This document shows, piece after piece, positions 44,201 through 50,200 of a DNA stretch of 64,000 nucleotides (position 1 is the first letter of the stretch; every line of letters begins with the position of its first letter). The notes beneath the pieces were generated by a model. That model was given only the letters and a program-made list of their open reading frames with translations. It had not been told where the DNA came from and did no database searches. A program made the position numbers and the translations under genes. The DNA is from Brachypterus glaber (taxonomy: Eukaryota > Arthropoda > Insecta > Coleoptera > Kateretidae), in assembly GCA_958510825.1 (NCBI GenBank), contig OY294044.1:77360895-77424894 (forward strand), given 5' to 3'.

Positions 44201-47200
44201 TCTTTACCTATCGTCTAGTAAATAAAAAATTAAAATTATGTTTTCCCACTTATAGATCTATCTATCTATCTATAGAATCTAAATAAATATAAAGTTTATA
44301 TGTTTCTGTTTTGTATTAGATTTTCACTAAATAAACCAACAAAAAAAGCTATTAATAAATTTTGACTTTAAAAATATAATTATTATAAAAAAAATCTCTA
44401 CCTTGGTATATATTACTATTGGTCATGTAAAAATGGACCTGAGCGCAAAAATTTTTTTTGATATTTTTATTTATTTTCACAAAATAAATCTACACCTTCA
44501 GGTCATTTGTTTCTGAAACTATTTATATTTTATGATTTATATTTAAATATTTCAATAATGATTTCTAAAAACGCTGAATTAAAGTTTATAATATTCATTC
44601 CTAAAATAGTTGTTTTATCTTCGCTTGAACAATGACAAACGCAAATAACACTTAATATAAATAATAAACAAATTTATTAATTCATTGTTTAAACATGCTG
44701 ATAAGCTACGTCAAAAAAATGTTTACATACAGGGTGTCTCAGAACTGACGCACTTCCTTTCAACGGAGTGATTCTAAATAAAAAATTCCTATAAACATAT
44801 GTTCAAAAACGACTCGTAAGGGAGCTACGCCCCTTCAAACGGGGTTCTAAAAATTCGATTTTTATTTAATAACTTAGAAACCCTATGTGTAAAAGCAATA
44901 ATGTTTTGCATGTGATTTTTCCTTATTAAGGCCTATTAGCCATGGTATTTGTATGTAGTTACTTCAACCAGGGACGTCCGAAATGGGGATCTTATTACTT
45001 TTTAGCCCCAAACTTTTTGTTGCTTTACTTTTTTGGGCGTTTATTACTAAAATAGTATTCCTCATGTAAAAATTTATAAAAAGGTACTCTTGTTGTAATG
45101 CCATATGATTAACCGTTTTCGAGAAAAATTAAAATTAAAGGAAAAATTATAGGTTTTATGAACCAAAAATTAAACACTAAAATATTTAAAACCAGGAGTT
45201 TAGTGATTTAGGGTTAATGTACATCAAAAAAAAAAAAAAGTTTCTGTACTTGTAGTTCCAAAAACTGATTCTCTCCAAAAATACACCACTTTTAAAGGGT
45301 CATGGTACCCTTAAAAACGATTTTTAAACCTACATGTATAGGAACTTATTTTCTTAGCTTTTGATGTAGAATCGCCCTGCCTTATTTAAATTTAGATTTT
45401 TAACATTTTAGTGTTTAGTTTTTGTTTCTCTAAACGTGTAATTTTGCAAATTTTGTATTTTTCTCGAAAACGGTTTATCCTACGATATTAGAACAAGAGT
45501 ACTCTTTTATGTGTGTTTTTACCTGTTGAATACTATTTTAATAATAAACGCACAAAAAAATAAAGCAGCAAAAAAGCAAAGCAGCAAAAAAGTAAATTAG
45601 CAAAAAAGTGATAAGACCACCCCATTTCGGACGTCCCTGGTTGAAGTAACTACATGCAAATACCATTGGTTAATAAGGAAAGATTACGTGCAAAGCTTTG
45701 TTGCTTTAACACAAAGAGTTATCAAATAAAAATCGAATGTTTAGAACCCCTTTTAAAGGGGCGTAGCTCCCTTACGAATAGTTTTTGGGCATATGTTTAT
45801 AGGAACTTTTTTTATCTTTTTTTATTTAGTCACTCCATAAAAGGAAGTGCGTCAGTTCTGAGACATCCTGTATTTATTTTGTAGGTACAGTTATTAATAA
45901 TAATAATAATAATTAGTGAGTACTTATGATACAGAACAATTGCCATGTCTCCTCTCACAGTGGGTTTTTGGTAAGTTTAGGTTTGACAAAAATGACAAAG
46001 AAAACCACACTGTGATCGTGATTCAGGCTTGTTTGGACATTACAAAACCACTTTTTTTAAAATCGAGTTAGCTCGTTTTTGCACTTTTTTTCGAAAATGA
46101 ACATAGCAGGAATATGAAAAATTGAGCGTTTAAAAATGTTACTCTGTTTTTTATTTTTACTATTTTTTTTTAATTTGGGACACCATCAATATTATTCTAA
46201 TAGTTTTAAAATTCTTTTTTTAATGTCGTCTTTTATGCAATAATCGAGCAAATACAAAAAAAGAACTTAATTACACAAATACATAATAAAATAGGTATAC
46301 CTATAGAAAATACATTTTTTATAGCAGAGGTGTATTAGGTATATCCAGAGATACTTAGAATCTTGAGATATAAGAATCCGAGGCTGCAAAAGTATTTTTT
46401 ACCTTGGTATATTGTTTTTTTTTACTAAAATAAACTATAAACTAAAAGACTTTAAAAGAATGCTATTTTATAAAACCTCACAAAAATCAAGTATCCTTGA
46501 TTAATGACATCCCAAATTGCTATAGAAACGGAATAATTAAAATAACGTCACGTATTTAGAATAAAAAACAAATACATTTTTTATGTATTAAATAGATTAT
46601 TAAATGATAAATAAATGATAAATTTTATACAAAATGCCATCAAGTCATGATGATAATAGAAAGAAGGTGTGCGCTCCTTGTGGTCGAAAAATTATATTCG
46701 GTAAGGATAAACCAAAATAGCATTTAATAACAAAACAGCTTGAGGATTTACTTAAAACAACTTATCCAGAATTCAATAGAGAAAATCCCAAATATTCCAT
46801 AGCAGTTTGTACAACGTGTCGTTTGTCACTTACGAATAACCAGCGTATTTTAGCATGCATGCCCAATTATCAGGATATTGTTACAAAAACAAACAAGATC
46901 AACGGAAAATGAATGTTGTTGTTTTATATGTTTAAAGGCAAGAGAAACGTTTCATAAAAAACAAGATAAGGGTAGGGGCCATGTTCTAAAAGAAGTTAAA
47001 ATAAATAATAAGGAAGTGCCGCATGCGTCTGAAAAAAATATTCCTCGTTGTAATATTTGTTTTTCAGAAATAAGTAAAGGTAAAAATCACGTTTGTAGTA
47101 GTACCTTAGCGACAAAAAATGTAAAGCTTATAGTAGATACTTTATCTGAAAAGCAAAAAGAACAAATTGTTTCATCTGTACTTCCAGATAAACTAAATAC

Positions 47201-50200
47201 TGAAAATAAATATGAAGAATTGGAGTTGGCAACAAAAGGAAAAAAGATTAAAGTCGCAGTTCATCAAAAAGACTCGAGAAAAATATTTTTCCCTGCTAAG
47301 AATCTTCTTGAATACCAAAAACAACAGGGTTCCTCAGCAAATCAAATGAAAAAAATGGCAAGTTTTTTAAGGAATTTTGCTGGTAAAAATTCTGTACCAT
47401 CTCAATTTAAACAAATATTATCTACGCAACAAAATAAACTAGATTATTTGTACAAAGATGGAGAATTTCTATTTGATGTAGAAGGTAAAGAAGAAAAAGA
47501 ACTCGGACCTGTAGTGTGGGCCGATTCTGAGGAACTATTAAAAGTTATATTAAAAGCAAGAGACCAAAATGGAAACGATGTAAATACAAAGGTTATGGCC
47601 GATGACGGACAGGGCTTTGTTAAGATCTCTTTGAATGTTTTTCCAATAACAGCTTCGGAGAATGAAAATTCTGACGATCCTCCCCAAAAAAAAAGTCGAT
47701 ATTCGGATACTGGTGGTGTATATGGAAACGCCAAGTTAACTAGCGTGCAAAAAACTATTTTGTTGTGTATCGTTCCTCAAGTTAAGGAGTCTTATCAAAA
47801 CCTTAAGCTTTTGTTTGAGCTAACTAATATAAACAGCATTTCCTTTAAATTTTTAGCTGATTTTAAAATAATTTTAACCTCTAATGGAATGCAAACGGCA
47901 AGCGCTACTTATCCCAGCCCTTATTGTTTTCAAACTTTAAACAGCTTAAAAGGAATCGAGGTTTATGGGGATGATGAGCAAGTAACATATATTGAAGGTA
48001 TTGAAAAACCATTAAAAAACAGTTGTTTGAAGTTAAGAACATACGGGGATTTAGAGGAAGGATATAAAAGATATGGTTTATGTGGTTATAACAAAAAAAA
48101 TGCAAAAGAATACCAAAGCACAATTCATTCTTCTTTATTTAAAGAGGATGAAAATATTACGGTGTTAGAAAAATGCTGTATTCCAGAACTTCATGTTCTA
48201 CAGGGTTATGTAAATCATATTTTCTGGAATGGCTTAGTGCCACTTGTAGGTCGCGAAAAAGCATTAATGTGGCCACAAAAACTTAATCTTATTTCCAAAA
48301 ACTACCAGGGTGAGGTGTTTGAAGGAAACGCCTGTCGAAAACTTTTAAAAAACGCAGATAAACTATTAGATCCGGATATTTTTCAAAATTCTAATCCTCT
48401 AACTTTAGTTCCACTGGTATCAGCATTTAAAGCTATGGACGTTGTTGTAGAAGATTGCTTGTCTTCTGGCAGTATTGGTCAAAATTTTGAGTTACATGTA
48501 ACATGTATACATTTAAACATGTAACATTTAAACATGTAACATGTATACATTTAAACATGTAACATGTATACATTTAAACCACTTAAGAAAATGTTTTAAT
48601 GCGACAGGTGTTTCCGAAACAAATAAAATTTAGCTTTTTGAAAAATGAAGGGTTGGGTTTTTGGTCGGAACAAGCAGGGGAAACATTACATAGGGAATTT
48701 AAAAAATATTGGGGGAAATATAAAATTAATTTACTTTCAAATTTCAATAATAAAAAATATTTAAGAAAAGCGGTTGTGGATTTTTCTTCAACACACCTTT
48801 AACTTGTATTTATTTTTAAGTTAAAATTTAATTATTTAGAGTTATGTTTTTTTTTACAGTTAGAGTTTAATCATTATTTATTATTATAATAGGTAATAAA
48901 AAAATAAATATTAGTAAAATGTACAAAATAATAAAAATTACTTTAAAAATTATAAATGTGTTGTCAAAAACTCTAATAATAAGAACTCTTAACCGCTAGC
49001 GGTCAATAAAAAATGTCGGTAATTTGTGCACCAAAACCAGGCTTTTCGTATAATATCTGGATTTTTCACCGGTCACGACCGGGATTTCGAATTTAGCACC
49101 TGGTAACCCTAGCCGTGTACGCATAGGTTACACAAAATTACTTTATAAAAATTTCGTATTTGCTCGGTTATTGCACAAAAGAGGACTTTAAAAGAAAAAT
49201 TTTAAAACTATTGGAATGATTTTGGTGGTGTCCTAAATCAAAAAAAAAAATTGTAAAAATAAGAAACAAAGTAACATTTTTAAACACTCAATTTTTTATA
49301 CTCCTGCTATGTTGATTTTCGTTTGGACAAATAATCATGAATCACGATCAGAATGTGGTTTTCTTCGTCATTTTTGTCAAACCTAAACTTTCCAAAAACC
49401 CACTGTGCTCTATTTAGCAGTACAAATAATTTCAATTTAACAAAAAAATTGTGATGCTACGAATATTGGACCGAATATTCGGAAATATTTCAGGTTGCCC
49501 ACGTATCAGGGAAAAGTCAGGGAATTCAGGGACTTTTGTCAGGGAATTTGATCCTGTAAAAAATTAGGAAAAAAATCAGGGTAACCTAAAAAACTCTGCT
49601 CTACATAATACATTATTACTAAAATTTATTCATAAAGTTTTACCAATTTATCCACACATTTTATAAAAAAAAATTTATAAAAGCATAACTCGAAACAGCA
49701 TGTTTAAGTTTTTTTGCCCATTTTATCAAAACCTATCCATAAATAACTAAACAGCATTTAGTAAATGCTGCAGCTATAGTTATAGGCTGGACAGTGTACT
49801 GGATACAAGGTTTTTAAAAATATAAATTTAAATTTTTTTGTATTTTTGGAGTTTTATCTACCAATAAAATGTATTTTTGGCGAACCATATATTTATTCAC
49901 CTATTTTCAATTTTAAATTCAATGTCAGATAGATGTATTTTCGACTTCATTGAATCTATAGTTTAAAATAACCGTTTGGTGCATGCAATCGTATGAATTT
50001 TTTATAAATAGCATGGTAAACGTAATTATACATAATCATAAATATTTAGGATCATAATGTTATTACTTCGGCACAAAAAGTGTCAAAGTATTGCGTTCAG
50101 GTTCGACGAATTAAAATTTTGGTTATTTTTTCTCGAGGGGCTGACCGCGTCTGAAATTTGTACAAAAGAGTTCCTTTTTGCAAAGAGTTCCTCGGAGTTC

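Follow-up and report, generated by a model that had tools for sequence, protein, structure and literature searches.

The transposon at positions 45956-49407 of a 64,000-nucleotide stretch of the Brachypterus glaber genome (contig OY294044.1, forward-strand positions 77,360,895 to 77,424,894; henceforth referred to as ‘the window’) is very probably a decayed, once autonomous Chapaev-type DNA transposon (CMC/Transib superfamily), Chapaev being judged here by published descriptions and the Pfam family DUF1280 rather than by Repbase sequences. Chapaev transposons, of the CMC group, reportedly go back to Kapitonov and Jurka (2007). The left tip of the element reads CACAGTG (45956-45962, + strand) and the right tip carries the same heptamer inverted (49401-49407). 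As a preliminary description of the window had it, these tips lie within terminal inverted repeats of about 300 bp, which comprise three aligned stretches (arms I1-I3; 83-91% complementary) and extend to 46259 on the left (45956-46259, + strand) and to 49152 on the right (49152-49407, - strand). CTCT stands directly outside both tips (45952-45955 and 49408-49411), the two copies of a 4-bp target duplication.

In the 648-Mb assembly, the first 345 bases of the element have at least 41 matches, left- and right-type ends pooled. A 33-bp tip pattern is matched exactly at 69 places, the reversed pattern at none. We fetched 34 family loci, which gave 35 two-ended elements including the window copy; locus L039, with one recognisable end, was omitted, and L037 has at its edge a further copy that the fetched DNA includes only in part. 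An exact 4-bp duplication flanks 32 of the 35 elements, an exact 5-bp or 3-bp duplication none of them; two of the non-exact cases (L009 and L014) are one base off and the third (L041) is unmatched. CACAGTG is present at the first tip in 31/35 and at the second tip in 34/35 elements. Because of the 69 tip matches against none and the exact duplications in 32/35, the signal of the element is well beyond chance, and the genome-wide copies, to which the preliminary description had looked for duplication length and termini, bear out its view that this is not a canonical Transib. Most elements (31/35) are versions of 0.5-2.2 kb and four are 3.4-3.5 kb long; the coding region of the family was found in four copies (protein search, 81 of 789 candidates scored) and is frame-split in all four. 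At L012 (G000 C4:40102500-40109600) two short copies lie 2.6 kb apart with an identical target duplication, apparently because the locus was duplicated in tandem and not because of two insertions; since they share the duplication site, they are not independent in these counts.

The transposase remains lie on the + strand, with ~0.7 kb of the element to their left and ~0.6 kb to their right. Homologues place the start of the protein, with the first zinc-type CxxC, at 46634-46717, where an in-frame stop ends it after 28 codons. An N-terminal remnant with the second CxxC (CTTC; 46721-46912, placed by open frames and homologues) leads through a frame change into the main open frame (46854-48524), which at 556 codons is the longest open stretch in the element and holds both catalytic Asp positions and the region corresponding to the RAG1-fold core of the homologues. 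A 23/38-bp tandem repeat array within the coding region (48494-48579) precedes a C-terminal remnant (48587-48802, likewise placed) with WSEQAGE, the catalytic Glu position. The decayed protein contains MADDGQGF, LADFK...YC, GNACRKLLKN and GFWSEQAGETLH, in the order of the RAG1 motifs, just as first described. The window copy cannot make a transposase, and no further open frame of more than 110 codons was detected in the element besides these remains.

RAG1 is the enzyme that assembles antibody genes, and the only strong structure matches of the predicted core of a homologue were RAG1-type folds, HzTransib and BbRAGL included, with the RAG1 match far above unrelated chains. Residues 260-776 of the homologue superpose on RAG1 460-996 with ~14% identity in the structural alignment. 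In the family alignment (51 rows, gaps counted as misses) the two catalytic Asp positions are conserved in all rows, as is C491, followed by C488 (49 rows), the His of LH, H710 and H715 (48 rows each) and E737 (46 rows). On the predicted structure, then, the transposase shares the fold and active-site layout of RAG1. The N-terminal part gave no fold match. Its zinc pattern aligned to the RAG1 N-terminus by hhalign with E 0.0019-0.0033, though at a probability of only 14% and 10%, a score equalled by 0/60 full column shuffles and by 2/60 shuffles with Cys fixed; this likeness fits the Chapa domain, by sequence comparison, without proving it. Just ahead of the core, a motif LSTxGRKxRxxxNP (P0001 residues 240-252 and homologues; Gly245 in 49/51 rows) recalls, as a sequence pattern, the GGRPR motif of the nonamer-binding domain of RAG1.

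According to PMC4079192 (published accounts are cited here from excerpts), Chapaev elements duplicate 3-4 bp of target, end in CAC...GTG and have a DDE transposase marked by C(2)C, LH and H(4)H. Each of these traits was found, the duplication being 4 bp here, except that the coding copies of the window family itself have lost the first Cys. PMC3985635 equates DUF1280 with the Chapaev transposase and places it in a group with RAG1, and the Chapa domain is said to link Chapaev with RAG1 (PMC4411706). The family reaches DUF1280 (PF06918, cut-off 25 bits) through a related genome protein, L077. Two pieces of L077 match the family profile (E 2.5e-16 at probability 98.7; E 2.6e-33 at probability 99.9), and the first of them matches DUF1280 with E 1.3e-4 at 22.2 bits, below the cut-off. 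For L075, a fuller sibling of L077 (39% identity), the match to the family profile spans 591 columns (E 2.9e-60, probability 100). Together, L075 (631-2520, - strand) and L077 (1426-2892) form a second, distant lineage of the transposase group with 26% identity to the family profile, within which L077 is nearer to Pfam DUF1280. With the predicted RAG1-type fold and this link, the preliminary assignment to the RAG1 superfamily or to a CMC/Chapaev relative stands.

Several results weigh against a Chapaev-type, RAG1-fold assignment. Direct DUF1280 matches were weak and found in 3/51 members (best E 0.021); a DUF1280 search of the genome returned seven places, L075 and L077 among them, none over the cut-off, and matches at 22.2 and 14 bits both fall below it. 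An hmmscan of L075 gave no DUF1280 match at E≤1, though its place had scored 20.8 bits in the genome search. A profile search against the PDB yielded no match, the Pfam RAG1 model was not among the 25 of 34, nor the 25 of 56, families listed, and hhalign to RAG1 reached a probability of 0.3-0.6%; neither RAG1 nor a Chapaev model was thus attained at its cut-off by sequence comparison. In addition, the CxxC zinc pair (47910-47927) has lost its first Cys, which is replaced by Ser in the window copy and by Asn in the other three coding copies of the family.

We compared the ends of the element with those of other families in the same genome, fetching the ends of nine families or subfamilies for the purpose. 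Of the nine, F9 and F3b, without resolved ends, were dropped and F4, which has the tip of F5, was counted once, leaving seven families including that of the window, with F2 and F10 outside the comparison and the right ends of F1 and F5 beyond the fetched DNA. Apart from conserved blocks the left ends are barely alignable. One block, AxGTT, lies at +24 to +28 from the tip (45979-45983, + strand) and another, AAAATC, at +104 to +109 (46059-46064, + strand); the latter begins at exactly +104 in the left ends of 5/7 families and at +103 in F1, and reads GAAATC at the aligned place in F7. In an ungapped alignment the best 7-column window, at +103, scored 39/49 and 17 columns beyond CAC reached 6/7 (rotation mean 1.1), which rose to 45/49 and 26 columns once F1 and F7 were each allowed one gap of a single base; in either case 0/3,000 rotations reached these values, in a control that keeps runs of A and leaves the shared ancestry of the families in place. 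AAAATC also stands at +104 in the right ends of F6 and F8 and is absent there from F3, F7 and the window family, whose right repeat in the window copy is shorter than the left and has one AAAATC at +89. The ends of the window copy are not equivalent, since a left-end stretch with the +104 block in it is missing on the right. Nothing like these multi-block ends, in which AAAATC sits near +104, occurs in the excerpted Chapaev accounts compared; this, together with DUF1280 being reached only below cut-off, would suit a separate, undescribed clade of RAG1-fold transposases that is sister to Chapaev rather than within it. We consider this unlikely, given that the testable Chapaev features of PMC4079192 are present and that the N-terminal zinc pattern is somewhat RAG1-like, as claimed for the Chapa domain (PMC4411706).

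A further reading, in which the element is of Transib type or a RAG-like (RAG1L-RAG2L) transposon whose ends are truly of the recombination signal sequence type (heptamer plus 23-bp-spaced nonamer), draws on the exact CACAGTG at most tips, on HzTransib and BbRAGL among the fold matches and on ACAAAAATG (45986-45994, + strand), which lies exactly 23 bp inside the heptamer and agrees with the V(D)J nonamer at 7/9 positions. The tips, however, read CACAGTG in the window family, CACGGTA in F1, CACAGAT in F4/F5, CACACTG in F6, CACAGGT in F3 and F7 and CACGCTA in F8, and so share CAC, followed by A/G and then G/C. As the exact heptamer occurs in 0/6 sister families, it argues only weakly for V(D)J ancestry. 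The inner inverted heptamer CACTGTG (46008-46014, - strand) is present in the window copy and in 29/31 left-type ends, whereas it occurs in 1/32 right-type ends (ends caught by pattern in the fetched loci), most of which read CACTCTG at the corresponding site; we judged it an incidental left-end feature. The weight that the preliminary description had placed on the heptamers, inner and outer, is therefore not sustained, even though both are where it saw them. For ACAAAAATG, shuffling reached a 7/9 likeness in 1.4% of cases at 23, in 2.7% at exactly 12 or 23 and in 7.6% at ±1. Across the seven families, likeness at 12/23 ±1 gave p 0.003 by plain letter shuffle and 0.014-0.047 by rotation (exact 12/23: 0.003-0.015 by rotation); without the window family rotation gave p 0.07-0.14 for 12/23 ±1 and 0.15-0.27 for 23 ±1, and 12 ±1 alone was unremarkable with the window family included (p 0.32-0.52). 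The nonamer likeness at 23 bp is thus real in the window element, and its conservation across families is not supported by these sequence comparisons. Transib and RAGL elements make 5-bp duplications (PMC7204232), so that the 4-bp duplication contradicts membership of either; judging by their flanks, F6, F7 and F8 duplicate 4 bp as well, and F3 does so with one mismatch. A convergent RAG2-like gene, as expected of a RAGL transposon, is likewise not seen in the element, judged by the short DNA on either side of the transposase remains and the lack of a further open frame over 110 codons; no RAG2 sequence search was made. In downstream pieces of 1.5-2.5 kb from seven families (F1 and F5 not read to their right ends) no open frame exceeded 149 codons, and hence no RAG2-like partner was seen. 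Overall, we regard this Transib-type or RAG-like reading as very improbable.

It is scarcely credible that the RAG1 motifs arose by chance in a DNA transposon of another kind, such as EnSpm/CACTA or Mirage, since EnSpm elements, which also have CAC tips, go with 3-bp duplications (PMC12730594), exact in 0/35 elements here, and the RAG1 fold match stands far above unrelated chains. A repeat of another sort occupies 1665-2673 of the window. Its inverted and direct copies (340 and 269 bp) match at ~98-99%, and it contains more CACAGTG words; no link to the transposon was seen.

The sister families contain open transposase frames at different sites: six equal-scoring 792-codon copies (G000 C4, C10, C11, C15, C16 and C18) and sixteen equal-scoring 697-codon copies (G000 C1, C2, C4, C10, C12, C16 and C17), and two copies of the 697-codon family show no difference across 587 bp upstream or 997 bp downstream. 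From these open, near-identical copies at different sites we infer recent transposition, and on this sequence evidence the sister families appear to have been active recently. With the element read as Chapaev-type, one gene would have encoded a transposase of ~730 amino acids with N-terminal zinc modules followed by the RAG1-fold core. This protein may bind the CAC tip and the internal blocks of both ends and cut next to CAC, so that the excised element could be joined to staggered target breaks 4 bp apart. A RAG2 partner would not be needed for transposition, and hairpins would probably be left on the flanking DNA, by analogy with RAG and Transib. Copies of the family that were still intact presumably mobilised the short relatives in trans.

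It is possible, though we hold it as a tentative proposal, that these families are a recently active, RAG2-independent RAG1-fold lineage in which multi-block ends (CAC tip, AxGTT at +24-28 and AAAATC at the near-fixed +104-109) are read by the core together with a zinc module at the N-terminus, one related to the N-terminus of RAG1. If so, the lineage would be a living outgroup for RAG1-type end recognition that predates 12/23 signals. Chapaev biology was described as largely uncharacterized as of 2014 (PMC4079192), and several Chapaev-like families in one genome, with open frames, offer material for testing a RAG1-fold enzyme without RAG2, the role of its N-terminal zinc region and end features older than the V(D)J heptamer-nonamer signal. 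The tempting V(D)J reading of a perfect CACAGTG is also corrected, as the sister families compared do not share it.

Compared with known systems, the family belongs to the same broad group as Chapaev3 (Merrow, Garfield and Conan) and differs from it in its 4-bp duplication and ~730-residue protein, Chapaev3 having 3-bp TWA duplications and, in Garfield, a 556-residue transposase (PMC4079192); membership of Chapaev3 was rejected, an exact 3-bp duplication being found in 0/35 elements. HzTransib and other Transib elements differ in their 5-bp duplication (PMC7204232), and their transposase is described in the excerpted account as without an identifiable domain outside the core (PMC4411706). With vertebrate RAG1 the family shares the predicted core fold, the catalytic and zinc residues, the exact heptamer at its ends and a weakly similar N-terminal zinc region, whereas it shows no RAG2, no supported 12/23 signal pair and a 4-bp instead of a 5-bp duplication. 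Unlike Chapaev as excerpted, where they go unmentioned, it has conserved blocks at +24 and +104; it resembles Chapaev in the 4-bp duplication, the CAC...GTG ends, the C(2)C/LH/H(4)H motifs, the N-terminal zinc region and the sub-cut-off link to DUF1280.
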